Translations under genes and position numbers: made by a program
Notes under the pieces: model-generated
What the model was told of the DNA's origin: nothing
Seen by the model: only the letters and a program-made list of their open reading frames with translations
Databases searched by the model: none
Part shown: positions 2,096 to 11,562 of the stretch, piece by piece
Position numbering within the stretch: the stretch's first letter is position 1
Layout of the letters: each line of letters opens with the position of its first letter
DNA from: Acidobacteriota bacterium
GTDB lineage: Bacteria; Acidobacteriota; Terriglobia; Terriglobales; SCQP01
NCBI GenBank assembly: GCA_027451805.1
Contig: DAIDIF010000291.1
Span: 1 to 32,901, forward strand
Direction: 5' to 3'
Length of the DNA stretch: 32,901 bases

Positions 2096-4072
2096 ATGCA
2101 ATGGATTCTTGAACAGCGCCTCCGCGCCGCGGTGCGCGAACATCTCCGCGCCCACTACCCCGCCACGCCCGCCGCCGCGCTCCCGCCCGAAGCCCTACGG
2201 ATCGAGCAGCCACCACAGCCGGAACTGGGGGAGTTCGCCCTGCCGCTCAGTTTCGAACTGGCCAAATCGCTGCGCCGCCCGCCGCGCGCCCTCGCCCAGG
2301 AGATGGCCGCCGCCTTCGAACTGCCCCAAGGCTTCGCCCGGGTCGAAGTCGCCGGCGCCGGCTATCTGAACTTCTTCGCCGACCGCGCCGCCACCGCCGC
2401 CATCGCCGCCGCTCCGTGCCCGCCGGAGCCCCGGCTTGGACCTAAAGTAATTGTTGAGCATACCAACATCAACCCGAACAAAGCCGCGCATATCGGCCAC
2501 CTGCGCAATGCCGTCCTGGGGGATACCTGGGTGCGCCTGCTGCGCCACCGCGGTGAGACCGTCGAGGTCCAGAACCTGCAGGACAACACCGGGGTGCAGG
2601 TGGCCGACGTCGTGGCGGCGTTTCTTTACTTGGAGGGCGCGGCCGGTGACGCCGCCGCGGCCATCGCCCGGGTCGAGAGCGCGATCGGCGATCCCGCGAA
2701 GCGCTTCGACTATCTTTGCTGGGACCTTTACGCCGCCATCGCCCAGCACTACGAGCAGCACCCGGCGGACCTGGCCGCCTGGCGACCGGCGACGCTGCAA
2801 GCCATTGAAGCCGGCGGCAATCCGGTGGCGCGGCTGGCGGCGGTCATCTCCGAAGCCATCGCGCGCTGCCATCTGAAGACGATGCAGCGCATCGGGGTGG
2901 AGTACGACCTGCTGCCGCGGGAAAGCGAGATCCTGCATCTCGACCTCTGGAGCCGGGCCTTCGCGCTGCTGCGCGAGCGCGGGGCGATTCGGCTGGAGGG
3001 CGAAGGCAAGAACGCCGGCTGCTGGGTGATGGAGCGCGCCGAGGCGCGCGGCCTCGAGGGCGAGGAGGAGACCAAGGTCATCGTGCGCTCCAACGGCACG
3101 GTGACATATGTCGGCAAGGACATCGCCTACCAGATGTGGAAGTTCGGCCTGCTGCCGCTGGAGTTCGGCTACGTGCGGTTTTATGAGTACCCCTCCGGCC
3201 ACGTCGCCTGGACCACCGCCGCCGGATCCGAGCCGGGCGCGCCCGGCTTTGGGCGGGCCGCCTGGGTGTACAACGTGATTGACGTCCGCCAGAGCTATTT
3301 GCAGGAAGTGGTGGTCGCCGGCCTGCGCGCCCTGGGCGCGGAGCGCGAGGCCCAGCGCAGCGTGCACTTCAGCTACGACATGGTGGCGCTCTCCGCCGCC
3401 TGTGCCGCCGAACTGGGCTACGTCGCCTCGGCCGAGGCCGCCGGCGGCAAGCGCGTGGACGTCTCCGGCCGCAAGGGCACCGGGGTCAAGGCCGACGACC
3501 TGCTCGACCGGCTGGAGGCGCGCACCCGCGCGGAGGTGGCGGCGCGCCACGCCGAACTGCCCGCCGTCGAGCAGCAGCGCCTCGCCGAACAGATCGCCGT
3601 CGGCGCGCTGCGTTACTTCCTGCTCAAGTTCGCCCGCACCACCGCGATCGCCTTTGACTTCAAGGAGGCCTTGAGCTTCGAGGGCGAGACCGGCCCCTAC
3701 GTGCAGTACGCGGCGGTGCGTGCCGCCGCCATCGGGCGCAAGGCCGCCGACGCGGCCAGCCCGCCGGCGGCGGCCTGGGACGCGGCCTGGGCCGGGTACC
3801 TCGACGACGCCGCCGCCTGGGGCCTGCTGTGGCAGGCCGGCCGGCTTGAGGCGCAGGTGGGGCAAAGCCTCGAGGCCGCCGAACCGGCGCAATTCGCCAA
3901 GTTCGCGTTCCAACTGGCGCAGACGTTCAACAACTTCTACCACCACACGCCGGTGCTGCAGGAAACCGACCCCGGCCGCCGCGGCTTTCTGCTCTGGCTG
4001 GTCGCCTACGTGCAGCGCCAGCTCGCCGCAGCGCTCGCGCTCATGGGCATCGCCGTGCCCGAGGCGATGTGA
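2096..4072 (+). CDS. argS: Arginyl-tRNA synthetase
   Basis: This class I aminoacyl-tRNA synthetase charges tRNA-Arg with arginine in the cytosol. It has 658 residues. An N-terminal additional domain (about 1-110) is followed by the Rossmann catalytic core. The class I HIGH signature is exact at residues 132-135, inside INPNKAAHIGHLRNAVLGD. The second signature loop appears as SGRKGTGVKADD (about 457-468), a GRKG form in place of KMSKS, as in many ArgRS enzymes. The C-terminal part (about 530-658) is the helical DALR anticodon-binding domain with the typical LAQTFNNFYHHTPVL stretch. The start ATG 2096 follows a TATAAT box by 34 bases. Its stop is only 6 bases from the stop of the convergent selenoprotein-like gene. 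Confidence 0.96.
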   Translation: MQWILEQRLRAAVREHLRAHYPATPAAALPPEALRIEQPPQPELGEFALPLSFELAKSLRRPPRALAQEMAAAFELPQGFARVEVAGAGYLNFFADRAATAAIAAAPCPPEPRLGPKVIVEHTNINPNKAAHIGHLRNAVLGDTWVRLLRHRGETVEVQNLQDNTGVQVADVVAAFLYLEGAAGDAAAAIARVESAIGDPAKRFDYLCWDLYAAIAQHYEQHPADLAAWRPATLQAIEAGGNPVARLAAVISEAIARCHLKTMQRIGVEYDLLPRESEILHLDLWSRAFALLRERGAIRLEGEGKNAGCWVMERAEARGLEGEEETKVIVRSNGTVTYVGKDIAYQMWKFGLLPLEFGYVRFYEYPSGHVAWTTAAGSEPGAPGFGRAAWVYNVIDVRQSYLQEVVVAGLRALGAEREAQRSVHFSYDMVALSAACAAELGYVASAEAAGGKRVDVSGRKGTGVKADDLLDRLEARTRAEVAARHAELPAVEQQRLAEQIAVGALRYFLLKFARTTAIAFDFKEALSFEGETGPYVQYAAVRAAAIGRKAADAASPPAAAWDAAWAGYLDDAAAWGLLWQAGRLEAQVGQSLEAAEPAQFAKFAFQLAQTFNNFYHHTPVLQETDPGRRGFLLWLVAYVQRQLAAALALMGIAVPEAM

Positions 4073-4078
4073 CCCGCC

Positions 4079-4603
4079 TCAGCGCGTAAAGCGCAGCGCC
4101 CGCAGGAAGTCCCGGAACCGCGGCCCGAAGCCGCGCGGCGGCGGCGCCGCTCCGCCGCCGAGATGCGCCAGCAGTTCCTCCGCCTTCACCCGGCGCGCCA
4201 TCGCCTCGCGCTCAAACCACACCAGCGTGCCCGCGGCGGCGATCACCGCCGTGGCCGGCTGCGCGATCCCGCCGCGCTCGCGCGGGTTGTAGACGTCCCA
4301 AGCCTGGATCAGCTTCCGCTCCGGATCGCACAGCAACGGAAAGGGAAGCTGGAGATCGCGGTGCAATCGCGCCGAGCGCTGCGGCGGATCCGCGGAAACC
4401 CCGGCCAGTTTGTACCCCAGCCGCGCGAACCCGTCCGCCTGCGCCGCGAACTCCGCCAACTGGCGGAGACAGAACGGTCACCAGGCGCCGCGGTAGAACA
4501 GCAGGATCAACCCGCGCCCGCCGGTTAGATCGCCGAATTGCCGCGGCACGCCGGCCTGATCGAGCGCGGCGATCTCGGGCGCCAGGGGATCGGTCGGCGG
4601 CAC
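4079..4603 (-). CDS. Peroxiredoxin-like (AhpC/TSA, thioredoxin fold) protein with in-frame TGA at the catalytic Cys: predicted selenoprotein
   Basis: Read through TGA at 4480-4478, this gene encodes 174 residues of the AhpC/TSA-like redoxin fold. Redoxins of this type reduce peroxides or disulfides through a nucleophilic Cys in the motif RGxWCPxC. Here the motif is LLFYRGAW-U-PFCLRQLAEF: the TGA is codon 42, exactly where the peroxidatic Cys belongs, with the partner Cys at 45 (UxxC). Family features continue in the same frame on both sides: LAGVSADPP (about 66-74), LPFPLLCDPERKLIQAWDVYNP (86-107) and a C-terminal strand ending FRDFLRALRFTR. A SECIS-like hairpin starts 9 bases after the TGA. 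GTG 4603 is the likely start, 6 bases after TATACT. Automatic callers would keep only 4079-4459 from an internal TTG and lose the active site. A nonsense mutation is the alternative, but hitting exactly this codon beside such a hairpin is unlikely. selA, selB, selC and selD are not in the window. Confidence 0.85.
4451..4468 (-). promoter_or_regulatory. Bacterial SECIS-like hairpin
   Basis: On the minus strand the sequence CTCCGCC-AGTT-GGCGGAG forms a perfect 7-bp stem with a 4-base loop. It begins 9 bases after the in-frame TGA (4480-4478), so 16 bases separate the TGA from the loop. G is at loop position 2. Published bacterial SECIS models need a short stem, a 3-14 base loop, a G in the first two loop positions and about 16-37 bases from UGA to loop, so this fits at the short limit. 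A further CCG/CGG pairing directly after the TGA could extend the lower stem. Role inferred: SelB recruitment of Sec-tRNA. Confidence 0.75.
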
Positions 4604-4641: not shown

Positions 4642-7374
4642 TTACTCCGCCCGCAGCGCCAACATCGGGTCCACGCGCGCCGCCCGCAGCGCCGGCCAGC
4701 CGCCCGCCAGCGCCGCCGCCGCCAGCATCAACACGGCGGCGGCGGCGAAGGTGGCCGGATCGGTGGGGGCGACGCCGTAGAGCTGGCCGGCGAGCAGCCG
4801 GCTGGCCGCCCAGGCGCCCAGCAGGCCGGCGGCGACGCCCGCCAGCGTCAGCCCCAGCGTCTCGCGCAGCACGGCGGCCAGCACCTGCCCGCGACGCGCG
4901 CCCAGGGCCATGCGGATGCCGATCTCGCCGGTGCGCCGGGCGACGGCGTAGGCCATGGTGCCCTCCAGCCCGATCGCCGCCAGCAGCAGGCCGAGCAGGC
5001 CGAAGAAGCCCGACAGCGCGGCGAACATGCGCTGCGGCCCGAAGTGCTCCGCGTCCACGTCGGCCTGCAGCTTCACCCCCGCCAGCGCCAGCGCCGGATC
5101 CAGGCCGCGTATCGCCGACCGCACTTCCGGCACCACGGCCTGCGGATCGCCCGCCAGCCGCACCTCAAAGACCAGGTTGCTCACCGGCGCCGGCATCTGC
5201 GAGTAGGGCGTGTAGAGCACCGCCGGCATCTTGCCCCGCACCCCGCTGTAGCGGGCATCCGCCGCCACGCCGACGATGGTGTAGACCGGCCCGCCCCTGC
5301 CGTCGCTGGTTACCTCGCGCCCCAGCGGATCGGCGGCGCCGAACAGGTTGCGCGCCAGCGTCGCGCTGACGACGGCGACCGGGCGGGAGGAGGTCAAGTC
5401 GGCGCCGGTGAAGTCGCGGCCCAGCCGCATGGGGATGCCCATGACGCGGAAGAAGTGCGGCCCCACCCCGTTGTGGTCGGACTGCCGCGCCGCGCGCGGC
5501 AAGTTCATCCCCGGCACCTGCAGCGGAAAGCTGCTCGACCAGCCGGTGAGCAGCCCCAGGCGCGAGGCCGTGACCCCGCTCACTCCGGGCAGCGCGGCCA
5601 GCTTGGCGGCGAGGTTGCGGTACAACGCCACCAGCTCCGCGCCGTGATAGCCGGCCTGCTCCCCATTCAGGCCGAAGACCAGCAGGTGGTCCGGATCGAA
5701 GCCCAGCGGCCGGCGCTGCAGCGCATCGAGCGTGCGCGCAAACAGGCCGGCGGCGATCAGCAATACCAGCGACAGCGCCACCTGCGACATCGCCAGCGCC
5801 TTGTCCCCGCGCAACCGCTGGCGCTCGCCCGCGGGCGTGCGCACCGTGCCCAGCGTGCCGGCGAGCTGCACCCGGGTGGAGCGCAGCGCCGGCGCCAGGC
5901 CGAACAGGATCCCGGTGGCGAGCGAGATGGCCACGGTGAACAGCACGATCGCGGGGTTGAGGCGCACCACCAGCGCCGTCGCTTCGCCCATCAGGCGAAG
6001 CAGCAGCTTCACCCCCAGCGGCGCCAGCAGGGCCCCGGCCGCCCCGCCCAGCAGCGCCAGCAGGACGCTCTCGGTGAGCAGTTGCCGCACCAGCCGCGAG
6101 CGCCGCGCCCCCAGCGCCAGCCGCACCCCGATCTCCCGTCGCCGCGCCGCCGCGCGCGCCAGCAGCAGCGCCGCGACATTGACGCAGGCCAGCAGCAGCA
6201 ACAGCCCCACCACCGCCATCAGAATGTAGAGCGACTGGCCGTTGTCGGAGCGAAAGCCGTTGATGCCCTGCGCGCCGCTGAGCAGGCCCAGTTCCGGAAC
6301 CCCGTTGCCGGTGGGCGCCGGGTTCAGCCCCGCCCGCGTGATCCGCCGGAACGCCGGCTCCAGCTCCGCCTGCGCCCGCGCCCGCGACACCCCCGGCCGC
6401 AGCCGCGCCATGACCTGCAGCCACCAGTAGGCGGTGGCGTGAACAATCGACAGGTTGGGCGGCACGTAGCCCCAGGGCGCCAGCGCCGCCGGCGTGGTGG
6501 GGGAGAGCGCCGCCCAGACGTCCCAGTTGGTGCCCGGTTCCACCCCTTCAAAGCCGCGCGGCGCCACGCCCACAATCGTCGCCGGCGCGCCGTTGAGCTC
6601 GACCGCCCGGCCGATCACCGCCCGGCTGCCGCCGAACTGCCGCCGCCAGAAGCCGTAGCTCAGCACCGCCGCCTCGGGCGCGCCCGCGCGTCCGTCGCGC
6701 ACCCCCAGCAGCCGCCCCGCCGCCGGCCGCAGACCCAGCATCGCAAAGAACCCGCCGGTCACCAGTTCGGCCCGCGTCAGCGTCGTCCGCCGGTGCACCA
6801 TCAGCGCCGTGGTCGCCGCGCCGAAGCTGATCGGCGCGAACCCGGCCACGCCGGAAAACACCTCGCCCGCATGCTCGCGCAGGTATTCATAGGTCGGATA
6901 GGCGAGCGAGTAGCTGCTCACGCCAGCCACGTCCGCCGGCCCCTCCTGGCCGGACTGGTTCAGCGCCTTGGGCCAGGTGCGCGCGTGCCAGTAGAGCAGC
7001 GCCAGCCGCCGCGGCGCCTGGACCGGCAGGTTCTGGTAGAGCGCCGCGTCGAGCACCGAGAAGATCGCCGCGTTGGCGCCGATGCCGAGCGCCAGCGACA
7101 GCACCACCACCAGCGTGAAGCCGGGCGCCTTCTGCAGCCCGCGCCAGCCCACGCTCAGGTCGCGGCGCAAATCCTCCAGCCAGGGCAAGCCGCGCTGGTC
7201 GCGCCACGCCTCGCTCACCGCATCCTCGCCGCGCAGCTTCTGCCGCGCCTCGGCGCCCAGCGCCTCGCGGTGCCCCGCCCACTCCTCCCGCAGCCGCTCC
7301 GCGTCCGCCTCGCGCCCGCTTTCGCCGCGCAGGCTCGCCGCCAGCCGCGCCCCGAACTCCCGCAGCCTAGACAT
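4642..7374 (-). CDS. ADOP-family (MacB/FtsX-type) ABC transporter permease
   Basis: This 910-residue inner-membrane protein has the duplicated MacB/FtsX layout typical of acidobacterial duplicated orphan permeases. An N-terminal basic prefix (1-75, with DAVSEAWRDQRGLPWLEDLRRDL) precedes TM1 (about 90-110, LVVVLSLALGIGANAAIFS). A MacB periplasmic core domain follows, with ILGVAPRGFEGV-like segments (AATIVGVAPRGFEGVEPG). The first FtsX domain has LLLLACVNVAALLLARAAARRREIGVRLALGARR. A second half repeats this pattern and ends with the FtsX stretch RRTGEIGIRMALGARRGQVL. No ATPase gene is attached, which is usual for this family. Its ATG overlaps the padR stop by 8 bases (ATGTCTAG), so translation is probably coupled. 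The substrate is unknown. MacB-like proteins can drive export or mechanotransmission. Confidence 0.9.
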   Translation of the reverse strand: MSRLREFGARLAASLRGESGREADAERLREEWAGHREALGAEARQKLRGEDAVSEAWRDQRGLPWLEDLRRDLSVGWRGLQKAPGFTLVVVLSLALGIGANAAIFSVLDAALYQNLPVQAPRRLALLYWHARTWPKALNQSGQEGPADVAGVSSYSLAYPTYEYLREHAGEVFSGVAGFAPISFGAATTALMVHRRTTLTRAELVTGGFFAMLGLRPAAGRLLGVRDGRAGAPEAAVLSYGFWRRQFGGSRAVIGRAVELNGAPATIVGVAPRGFEGVEPGTNWDVWAALSPTTPAALAPWGYVPPNLSIVHATAYWWLQVMARLRPGVSRARAQAELEPAFRRITRAGLNPAPTGNGVPELGLLSGAQGINGFRSDNGQSLYILMAVVGLLLLLACVNVAALLLARAAARRREIGVRLALGARRSRLVRQLLTESVLLALLGGAAGALLAPLGVKLLLRLMGEATALVVRLNPAIVLFTVAISLATGILFGLAPALRSTRVQLAGTLGTVRTPAGERQRLRGDKALAMSQVALSLVLLIAAGLFARTLDALQRRPLGFDPDHLLVFGLNGEQAGYHGAELVALYRNLAAKLAALPGVSGVTASRLGLLTGWSSSFPLQVPGMNLPRAARQSDHNGVGPHFFRVMGIPMRLGRDFTGADLTSSRPVAVVSATLARNLFGAADPLGREVTSDGRGGPVYTIVGVAADARYSGVRGKMPAVLYTPYSQMPAPVSNLVFEVRLAGDPQAVVPEVRSAIRGLDPALALAGVKLQADVDAEHFGPQRMFAALSGFFGLLGLLLAAIGLEGTMAYAVARRTGEIGIRMALGARRGQVLAAVLRETLGLTLAGVAAGLLGAWAASRLLAGQLYGVAPTDPATFAAAAVLMLAAAALAGGWPALRAARVDPMLALRAE

Positions 7375-8082: not shown

Positions 8083-8480
8083 GAACGGCGGTCGACAGCT
8101 CGGTGCTGCTGGACGTGCTCAGCGCGGAACCGCGCTTCGCCTCGGCTTCCGAACGCGCCCTGCGCGAGGCCGGCCGGAAGGGCGCCCTGCTTGCCTGTCC
8201 CATCGTCTGGGCCGAAGTGCAGTCGCACTTCGCGCGCCCGGAGGAGATGCGCGCCGCCATGGGCGGCGCCGGCATCGTCTTCGATCCGTTCGACGAAGCC
8301 TGCGCCGCGCTCGCGGGCCGAATCTGGGCCGACTACCGCCGCGCCGGAGGCTCGCGCCAGCACCTGATCGCCGACTTCCTCGTCGGCGCCCACGCCCAGG
8401 TCCGCGGCGGCGGCCGGCTGCTGTCGCGCGACCGGGGCTTCTATCGCCGCTACTTCGCCCAGGTGGCCGTCACCGCCTAG
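8079..8480 (+). CDS. PIN-domain toxin, VapC-like ribonuclease
   Basis: VapC toxins are Mg-dependent endoribonucleases that cut tRNA or rRNA and stop growth. The 133-residue PIN domain shows the expected acidic set: D6 in AVDSSVLLDVL, E46 in WAEVQSHF, D99 in RQHLIADFLVGAHA and D118 in LLSRDRGFY. GTG 8079 overlaps the antitoxin stop (GTGA). An upstream ATG at 8034 would only add 15 Ala/Gly-rich residues inside the antitoxin gene. Its 3' end overlaps the convergent propeller-protein gene by 11 bases. The target RNA cannot be told from sequence. Confidence 0.88.
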   Translation: MRTAVDSSVLLDVLSAEPRFASASERALREAGRKGALLACPIVWAEVQSHFARPEEMRAAMGGAGIVFDPFDEACAALAGRIWADYRRAGGSRQHLIADFLVGAHAQVRGGGRLLSRDRGFYRRYFAQVAVTA

Positions 8481-11400
8481 CGCCGGCCGCGCCCACTGGC
8501 TGCGCCCCGGCGGCGGTGAGCGCCTGGTTGAAAGCCGCCAACTGGTTCTCGCGAATGCCGCGGAATTGGGCCAGCACCGCCTCCAGCTGCGCGTTGAGCT
8601 GGCGGAAGATGACGTAGGTCTGATCGGTGGGGCGGGCGTCGTAGCTGCCCTCGATCACGCCCATCAGGTGCCCGATGCGGTTGTTGAGCTTGATGGGGAA
8701 GTTGAGCGGGTCCTCGCTGGCGTGGCTCTTGGACTGGTAGATGGTGTCGGCGATGCCGGTCAACTGCGCCGCGAGGGCCTTGCCCTGCGCCTGCAGCGCG
8801 GCATCCTGCGCGTGCGCCACGCGCTGATTCACCTGGGCGCGCAGCTGGCGCGCCTCGATCAGCGCCTGGTTGGCCGCGCTCTCGGCCTTGACCACCTGCG
8901 CATCCAGGTCGAATTGCGCCTGCAAGTCCGCCTGCGTCGCCGGCGAGTGGGGGTTGCGCGTCACCATAAACGGCACTGATCCGGTCTCGCCGTCCGCCGT
9001 GACCCGCGCCGTGTACGCGCCCGGCACCGCGATCGGCCCCATGGTGATGTTGGCGCCCCACAGCACCATGCCCGGGAAGGTGGTGGCGCCGGGATAGCGC
9101 AGGTTCCAGGTGAACTGATTGATGCCCGCCTGGGCGGTGGGCTGCTGCTGCGCGAAGCGCGCGAAGAAGGGGTTGGCCGCCGGGCGCGGCTTCGCTCCCG
9201 GCTTGGGGCTGGTGAAGGTGTTCACCACCCGCCCCTGGGCGTCCCGGATCTCGATCTTCACCTGCTTCGCCGCCTGGGGCAGGGTGTAGTCGAGGATCAG
9301 GCCGCGATCACCGCGCTGCGCCGGCTGCGGCGCGAACACGTGCAGGCGGGCGCTAGCGGCAATCGCGGGCGTGAGCTGGCGCAGCACGTCCATGTTGCGC
9401 AGGCTCCAGAAGGACCGCCCCATGGTGGAGATCACCACGTCGTGCGGCGCCACCGCGATGTCGGACACCTGCACGTCGGGCAGGTTCAGCGCGAGCGATT
9501 GCCAGTGGTCGCCGTTGTCGAAGGAGACGTAGATGCCGTGCTCGCAGCCGGCGTAGAGCAGCCCCGGGCGGTAGGGGTCCTCGCGCACCGCCCGCACCGC
9601 GTCGCGGGGGCCGATGCCGCGGGTGATGGTGGTCCAGGTCTTGCCGTAATCCTCGGTGCGGAAGATGTAGGGGGTGCGATCGTCCTGCAGGTAGCGGTTC
9701 ACCGCCACGTAGGCTCCGCCGGGCTGCGACCAGGAGGCCTCGATCAGGCTGACCCGGCCGAAGTGGGGCATCTGCGGCGGCGTGACGTTGCTCCAGTGCG
9801 CGCCGCCGTCGCGGGTGAGGTAGACCAGGCCGTCGTCGGAGCCGGTCCAGATCGTGCCCGGCTGCTTGTGCGAGGGCGCGATGCTGAAGATGGTGGCGTA
9901 GATCTCCGGGCCGTTCATGTCGTGCGTGATCGGTCCGCCGGAGTCGCCCAGCGTTTTGGGATCGTGCAGGGTGAGGTCGGGGCTGATCCGCGTCCAGCTC
10001 TGCCCGTCGTTGGTGGTCTTCCACAAATGCTGCGACGAGGTGTAGAGCGTGTGCGGGTCGAAGTTGTTGAACACGATGGGGAAGGTCCACTGCCAGCGCT
10101 CGGGCAGCGAGGCGGCGGGCTCGCCGGAGAAGAAGCGCGGGTAAGGCTCGATGTCGCGGCTCTCGCCGGTGCGGCGGTCGAAACGGGTGAGCAGCGCGCC
10201 CTGGCTGCCGGCGTAAAAGATATTGGGGTTGGTGGGGCTGGGGGCGATGTAGCCGCTCTCGCCGCCGCCGACGTCGTAAAGCAAGGCCCACATGCCGTGG
10301 CCGAAGTTGCCGCGCCCGCCGCCAGGCGTGCTTTGCACGCAGGCGGTGCCGCTGTCCTGCTGGGCGCCGCAGACCTGGTAGGGATCATCCTTGGTCAGCG
10401 CCACGTGGTACAACTGCGCGGTGGGATAGGTCTCCGGCGTCCAGGTCTTGCCCCCGTCCACGCTCACCGTGGCGCCGCTGTCGTTGCTGACCACCATGCG
10501 CTGGTCATTGGTGGGGTCGATCCAGACCCAGTGGGTGTCGCCGCCGCGCACGCGCTTCCAGGTCTTGCCGGCGTCGGTGGAGCGGTAGAAGCCGACGTTG
10601 CCGCCGTAGACGGTGTTCTCCTTCTGCGGATCGGCGACCAGGTCGCTGAAATAAAAGGCGCGCTGGCGCAGGGTGTTCTGGCTGTTGACCAACGTCCAGG
10701 TCGCGCCGGCGTCGTCGGAGCGGAACACGCCGCCGTCGCGCGCCTCCACGATGGCGTACAAGCGGTTGGAGTCCACCGGGCTCACCGTGATGCCGATCTT
10801 GCCGATGATCCCCTGGGGCATGCCCGGGTTGCGCGTGATCTCGGTCCAGTGCGCCCCGCCATCGGTGGTCTTGAACAGGCCACTGCCCGGCCCGCCGCTC
10901 GACATCCCCCAGTCCGTCCGCCAGGCCTGCCACAGCGACGCGTACAGCACCTGGGAATTGTGCGGGTCCATCACCAGGTCCACCGCCCCGGTCTTGGCGT
11001 TGCGGTAGAGGATCTTGGTCCAGGTCGCGCCCCCGTCGGTGGTCTTGAACACGCCGCGCTCGGCGTTGGCGTCGGAGGGATGGCCGAGCGCGGCCACGTA
11101 GACGACGTCGGGATTGGCGGGATCGATGACGATGCGCGAGACGATCTGGGTGTCGGCCAGGCCCATGTGGCGCCAGGTCTTGCCGGCGTCGGTGGACTTG
11201 TACACCCCGTCGCCGGTCATGATGTTGCCGCGGAGATCCTTCTCGCCCATGCCGATCCAGACGACGTTGGGGTTGGAGGCCGCCACCGCCACCGCGCCCA
11301 CCGAGGAGCTGTGAATCTGGCCGTCGGTCACCGGGCGCCAGGTGATGCCGCCATCGCTGGTCTTCCACAGACCGCCGCCGGTGGCGCCGGTGTAATAGAC

Positions 11401-11562
11401 CAGCGGCTGCGCCGCCGAGCCGGTGCTGGCGATGGAGCGCCCGGCGCGGTCGGGGCCGATGTTGACCCACTTCAGGTTGTGCAGCATTCGCGCCGGAATC
11501 GTTCCCTGCCCCAGCGCCGCGCCGCCCAGTGCCAACGTGACCACCGCCAGAATCTTCCGCAT
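8470..11562 (-). CDS. Secreted Asp-box (BNR/VPS10-like) beta-propeller protein
   Basis: This 1030-residue exported protein begins with a signal peptide (MRKILAVVTLALGGAALG). At least eleven Asp-box motifs of the type S/T-x-D-x-G-x-x-W follow, for example KTSDGGITW, KSTDAGKTW, KTTDGGATW, KTTDGGAHW, RSTDAGKTW, SVDGGKTW and RTEDYGKTW. They mark sortilin/sialidase-like beta-propellers (about residues 25-720). The last 300 residues hold a beta-sandwich-like part (KQVKIEIRDAQGRVVNTF), a GINQFTWNLRYPGATTFPG segment and a helical tail rich in Ala/Gln (about 880-1010). Acidobacteria carry many such proteins, usually annotated as glycosyl hydrolase, but no sialidase active-site Arg triad is evident, so binding or scaffolding is as likely. 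It has its own promoter and a Shine-Dalgarno (AAAGGGGG). Confidence 0.85.
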   Translation of the reverse strand: MRKILAVVTLALGGAALGQGTIPARMLHNLKWVNIGPDRAGRSIASTGSAAQPLVYYTGATGGGLWKTSDGGITWRPVTDGQIHSSSVGAVAVAASNPNVVWIGMGEKDLRGNIMTGDGVYKSTDAGKTWRHMGLADTQIVSRIVIDPANPDVVYVAALGHPSDANAERGVFKTTDGGATWTKILYRNAKTGAVDLVMDPHNSQVLYASLWQAWRTDWGMSSGGPGSGLFKTTDGGAHWTEITRNPGMPQGIIGKIGITVSPVDSNRLYAIVEARDGGVFRSDDAGATWTLVNSQNTLRQRAFYFSDLVADPQKENTVYGGNVGFYRSTDAGKTWKRVRGGDTHWVWIDPTNDQRMVVSNDSGATVSVDGGKTWTPETYPTAQLYHVALTKDDPYQVCGAQQDSGTACVQSTPGGGRGNFGHGMWALLYDVGGGESGYIAPSPTNPNIFYAGSQGALLTRFDRRTGESRDIEPYPRFFSGEPAASLPERWQWTFPIVFNNFDPHTLYTSSQHLWKTTNDGQSWTRISPDLTLHDPKTLGDSGGPITHDMNGPEIYATIFSIAPSHKQPGTIWTGSDDGLVYLTRDGGAHWSNVTPPQMPHFGRVSLIEASWSQPGGAYVAVNRYLQDDRTPYIFRTEDYGKTWTTITRGIGPRDAVRAVREDPYRPGLLYAGCEHGIYVSFDNGDHWQSLALNLPDVQVSDIAVAPHDVVISTMGRSFWSLRNMDVLRQLTPAIAASARLHVFAPQPAQRGDRGLILDYTLPQAAKQVKIEIRDAQGRVVNTFTSPKPGAKPRPAANPFFARFAQQQPTAQAGINQFTWNLRYPGATTFPGMVLWGANITMGPIAVPGAYTARVTADGETGSVPFMVTRNPHSPATQADLQAQFDLDAQVVKAESAANQALIEARQLRAQVNQRVAHAQDAALQAQGKALAAQLTGIADTIYQSKSHASEDPLNFPIKLNNRIGHLMGVIEGSYDARPTDQTYVIFRQLNAQLEAVLAQFRGIRENQLAAFNQALTAAGAQPVGAAGARR

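Follow-up and report, generated by a model that had tools for sequence, protein, structure and literature searches.

A probable UxxC peroxiredoxin-like selenoprotein encoded in an acidobacterial genome

A peroxiredoxin-like gene with an in-frame TGA

The window, by which we mean the whole stretch of 32,901 nucleotides that was analyzed, contains a minus-strand gene for a peroxiredoxin-like protein, flanked by the genes of an arginyl-tRNA synthetase and a permease (Table 1). Translation of the minus-strand frame 4603-4079 revealed a single internal TGA (4480-4478), in the context FYRGAW-U-PFCLRQL, ahead of the terminal TGA at 4081-4079. The first-pass annotation of this DNA had described a frame interrupted only at codon 42 with homology continuing in frame on either side, and both statements agree with our data: the PF00578 (AhpC/TSA) profile covers residues 8-129, thus both sides of the TGA (E 1.6e-25; 89.9 bits, cut-off 26), and the Redoxin profile also matches the protein (E 1.2e-13). 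The same-genus orthologue described below starts with an ATG that lines up with the GTG at 4603. Downstream of codon 42, the mechanical open reading frame extends from TTG 4459 to 4079 and encodes 126 amino acids, which is the truncated product that had been predicted for gene callers. Because standard gene calling starts after the TGA and loses the active site, wrong annotations are likely throughout a whole clade of redox selenoproteins in Acidobacteria.

The Rfam search found no family in the window. Elsewhere on the minus strand (8470-11562), a 1030-residue protein with Sortilin-Vps10/BNR repeats is encoded.

Table 1 Features of the locus and their positions in the window.
Feature	Position	Strand	Remarks
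Selenoprotein gene (probable)	4079..4603	minus	174 residues, Sec at codon 42; GTG start, TGA terminal stop
In-frame TGA, codon 42, probably read as selenocysteine	4478..4480	minus	27 loci with TGA and 4 with Cys in this column
Cys45 (TGT), second residue of the UxxC pair	4469..4471	minus	aligns with the peroxidatic Cys of peroxiredoxins
Predicted SECIS hairpin CUCCGCC-AGUU-GGCGGAG	4451..4468	minus	folding, covariation; fits bSECIS constraints
Pro116 codon (IAQPAT), cis-proline position of the thioredoxin fold	4256..4258	minus	alignment
Arginyl-tRNA synthetase, convergent neighbour, ends 6 bp from the selenoprotein gene	2096..4072	plus	synteny marker; functional link not implied
MacB/FtsX-type permease, upstream of the selenoprotein gene, same strand, gap 38 bp	4642..7374	minus	synteny marker

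Conservation of the TGA and of the hairpin behind it

Homologues at E <= 1e-8 were detected in 101 of 200 related genomes. All 16 best matches from this set (E <= 6.7e-27, window gene included) possess an in-frame TGA, and in all 15 matches retrieved for alignment it falls in the codon-42 column. The 15 loci ranking next after the window gene come from 14 further genomes, are 39-75% identical to it, and all have the in-frame TGA. The first-pass annotation had proposed a search for homologues with Cys or Sec at this column; among the 31 aligned motif-bearing loci, 27 show TGA and four show Cys (L025, L044, L046, and L053). The same-genus orthologue (L024/L030; JAKAOE010000305.1, Acidobacteria bacterium YF1.bin113, a separate assembly) is 75% identical, contains the same TGA, and has the same neighbours, i.e. 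arginyl-tRNA synthetase and the MacB/FtsX permease. More distant homologues of many genera also have TGA at codon 42. Since the same TGA recurs in a separate assembly and in many genera, chance and sequencing error are excluded as its origin.

Cys45 is invariant in 28 aligned sequences, and the codons 3' of the TGA look constrained (dN 0.12, dS 0.27 versus L030). Random stop codons elsewhere in relatives, which had been named as a sign against the selenoprotein reading, were not encountered: close relatives have no further stop ahead of the C-terminal tail, and their TGA lies in one column.

No full-length Cys form at E < 1e-22 was found in the 200 related and 396 phylum-wide genomes, which makes a Sec-dominated subclade possible. 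The nearest full-length Cys form (L066) is 39% identical (E 1.8e-21). Genome G172 may hold another Cys form, a fragment of 67 residues (45% identity, no stop) located at the end of a contig. The phylum-wide search of 396 genomes added three loci: L065 (Sec form), L066, and L067 (one TGA).

The predicted SECIS element, which begins 9 nt 3' of the UGA, has a 7-bp stem and an AGUU loop; the apical loop starts 16 nt 3' of the UGA, and the 18-nt hairpin alone folds with -12.8 kcal/mol. The bSECIS model, as quoted in PMC13188914, has a loop of 3-9 nt, an upper stem of 4-16 bp, a G within the first two loop positions, a spacing of 16-37 nt, and an MFE <= -7.5 kcal/mol, and the window hairpin lies within all of these quoted limits. 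In most relatives with around 40% identity at the protein level, the DNA is similar only in the stretch around the TGA and the hairpin. In 12 distinct close relatives taken together, 91.7% of the pair cells form, versus at most 68% for slid registers. Three of the seven stem pairs show two-sided changes (G-C to A-U, U-A to G-C, and C-G to A-U), and the outermost pair is formed in only half of the sequences; as these changes are few and the sequences related, pair counts alone are modest evidence.

The loop contains the codon of Leu49, which is TTG in all 15 close loci, although TTG makes up 9% of the Leu codons in the window. At this position, CTT and CTC occur in the two Cys forms whose motif could be read. 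In 3000 synonymous recodings, the folding stability of the native sequence was matched 27 times. The folding z-score varies with the stretch considered: it is significant for the 18-nt and 40-nt stretches (-2.3 for the latter) and not significant for 61 nt (-0.4), where the surroundings are very GC-rich. Judged from these alignments and foldings, the conservation of the hairpin and of its Leu codon goes beyond what the protein requires. This clade is a clean data set in which to examine the constraints that SECIS pairing places on codons, its loop holding the same uncommon Leu codon from genus to genus.

A pseudogene that arose by a chance nonsense mutation, or a TGC or TGT read wrongly in sequencing, could be suspected in a fragmented assembly of 305 contigs in which base errors are possible, yet it has practically no probability left given the same TGA across independent assemblies and many genera, the lack of another stop before the C-terminal tail, the apparent constraint on the codons 3' of the TGA, and a hairpin and loop Leu codon kept beyond protein needs.

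Selenocysteine machinery and decoding of the TGA

The first-pass annotation had proposed a search of the genome for selA, selB, selC, and selD. In the host genome (3.16 Mb, 305 contigs, 95% complete), we found SelA (467 bits), SelD (365 bits), the N-terminal GTPase region of SelB (269 bits), and a tRNA-Sec (71.9 bits), all over their cut-offs. According to ARAGORN, the tRNA has the anticodon TCA (tRNA-Sec(UCA)). The SelB open reading frame (L009; G000:C23:1-2708, 186-1208 minus) has a GTG start, encodes 340 amino acids, and stops near the contig end, which leaves the SECIS-binding domain at the C-terminus unseen in the host. SelB-like residues seem to go on in another frame, and an assembly frameshift is a possible cause of the break. 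Same-family genomes contain SelB open frames of 657-717 amino acids.

The machinery is also found in relatives. Of eight same-family genomes tested, six have a tRNA-Sec over the cut-off, and the two misses are 73% and 75% complete. Of the 27 genomes in which a TGA form was verified, 26 possess selA, versus 63 of the 173 others (Fisher p 1.2e-9, not corrected for relatedness). One genome of the same genus (G003, 82% complete), which possesses a TGA form (L032, G003:C20), yielded no selA, tRNA-Sec, or SelB over the cut-off; incompleteness and recent loss are both possible explanations.

The Sec genes, the conservation of the TGA in one column, the hairpin with its compensatory changes, and the co-occurrence with selA together indicate that the codon-42 TGA very probably encodes selenocysteine. 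We put the probability of a UxxC Prx-like selenoprotein at roughly 95%; the first-pass annotation had proposed a selenoprotein, and this part of its claim is strongly supported by the same lines of evidence.

A suppressor or reassigned tRNA that decodes the UGA as Cys, Trp, or another standard amino acid would be compatible with the Cys found at this column in some homologues, and unusual tRNA-Sec-like tRNAs are on record in bacteria (PMC7609411). We regard such decoding as very improbable: a full-score tRNA-Sec is present along with SelA and SelD, and both the conservation of the hairpin and the co-occurrence with selA favour Sec. Trp decoding or a global reassignment of TGA was ruled out, since TGA is the terminal stop of the window gene and of several relatives.

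For a Sec-decoded TGA, the proposed mechanism is as follows. SelB carrying Sec-tRNA-Sec(UCA) would bind the AGUU-capped hairpin just 3' of UGA 42, and selenocysteine would be inserted there in place of termination. In the mature protein, U42 would stand at the place of the N-terminal nucleophilic Cys of thioredoxin-like enzymes with C45 as the resolving Cys, the two forming a selenol-thiol/selenenylsulfide pair. This pair would most likely reduce disulfides, and possibly peroxides too, and would presumably be recycled by a cellular thiol system.

Active site, likely activity and known relatives

Alignment with peroxiredoxins of known structure places U42 at the Thr of the TxxC/TPxC motif and C45 at the peroxidatic Cys, whereas in the CxxC motif of thioredoxin and ResA U42 corresponds to the N-terminal Cys. 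The first-pass annotation had located the TGA at the catalytic, peroxidatic Cys; the general claim of a catalytic-site TGA holds, since U42 is still an active-site position, and the specific assignment belongs to C45 instead. According to the thioredoxin-fold literature (PMC2757866), the TxxC of peroxiredoxins has lost the N-terminal Cys of CxxC and retains the C-terminal Cys as its nucleophile; where thioredoxins have the cis-proline, peroxiredoxins have an Arg near the peroxidatic Cys. Neither hallmark of true peroxiredoxins was found in the window protein: the Thr position of the Thr/Ser-x-x-Cys (or Sec) motif is Sec, and Pro116 lies at the cis-Pro position in place of the conserved active-site Arg. 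This Pro is shared with the 13 closest aligned relatives (14 of 14 in the close group), and the TPGC peroxiredoxins L026 and L027 have Arg at the equivalent position. The predicted model (pLDDT 88) adopts a peroxiredoxin-like fold with Bcp4, BcpB, and AhpE as the best structural matches.

The best reading of these alignments is that the protein carries a Sec/Cys pair of the thioredoxin type on a peroxiredoxin scaffold, which suggests a thiol:disulfide oxidoreductase; disulfide reduction is probably its main activity. That Sec is inserted and the protein nevertheless acts mainly as a peroxidase seems unlikely to us, although its Pfam family is AhpC-TSA, the model most resembles peroxiredoxins in structure, and C45 occupies the peroxidatic position. 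Peroxide reduction by the selenol at U42 itself is also conceivable, after the example of glutathione peroxidase, a UxxT enzyme. Two features speak against a peroxidase: Sec takes the place of the Thr/Ser that supports the peroxidatic Cys, and the peroxiredoxin Arg is Pro in all 14 aligned members of the close group (Arg/Pro contrast according to PMC2757866).

The first-pass annotation had considered the selenoprotein undescribed, which does not stand, as UxxC Prx-like selenoproteins of PF00578 are catalogued in reviews and metagenome surveys (PMC13188914, PMC9312934, PMC2398784, PMC1088965), and this kind of bacterial selenoprotein has been known since the mid-2000s. The window gene is a new acidobacterial member of the catalogued family of Prx-like thiol:disulfide oxidoreductases (PF00578, UxxC/UxxU), which has WP_010940744.1 as one listed representative (PMC13188914, PMC9312934) and which the GOS survey named 'Prx-like 1'. 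The window protein has in common with this family PF00578, the UxxC motif (UPFC here), and the N-terminal position of Sec, and Cys homologues exist in both groups. The close group of the window protein is distinguished by its occurrence in Acidobacteria relatives, the RGxWUPFC motif, Pro116, a C-terminal RALR tail, and the AGUU SECIS, the comparison with WP_010940744.1 being based on its published listing. That these proteins form a separate UxxC subfamily in Acidobacteria relatives, with Sec as the rule, a standard AGUU SECIS, and a specific redox role beyond Prx-like 1, is doubtful.

Other known systems resemble the window protein less closely. Its best NCBIfam match is the SelL-related redox protein (NF040769), and membership was ruled out by the score of 40.6 bits against a cut-off of 120; with the nearest NCBIfam model so far below its cut-off, automatic annotation is probably blind to the gene. 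The CxxC active site of ResA-type thiol-disulfide oxidoreductases aligns with UPFC, and ResA proteins have a proline at the cis-Pro position. ResA uses Cys in place of Sec, however, and the window protein differs from it in its best Pfam match, AhpC-TSA, and in a model closest to peroxiredoxins. Sec peroxiredoxins of the BCP/PrxQ type (TxxU) belong to the same fold family and are likewise encoded with a Sec-encoding UGA, but there Sec is peroxidatic and the Arg is kept, whereas in the window protein Sec lies three residues earlier and Pro replaces the Arg.

A second selenoprotein gene of the BCP/PrxQ type appears in the same genome (L061, G000:C96:1-4500, minus 2133-1651), with an in-frame TGA in the context GTSGUTTEA, followed by what may be a hairpin whose loop resembles AGUU. 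At the place equivalent to Pro116, this TSGU protein has GIARTTVLI. With UxxC and TxxU peroxiredoxin-like selenoproteins in one genome, the two positions of Sec on the same fold would be open to direct comparison.

Two further sets of UxxC relatives were observed. L048, L054, and L057 (frame ~1456-2445) encode proteins of about 330 amino acids with the motif RSADWUPFC and an extra C-terminal domain; L044, L046, and L053 are similar Cys versions. This is a separate UxxC branch. The relatives L045, L047, and L056 (also L050 and L055) retain Arg at the cis-Pro position and share a different hairpin 3' of the TGA, CUGCGCGAGUUCGCGCAG.
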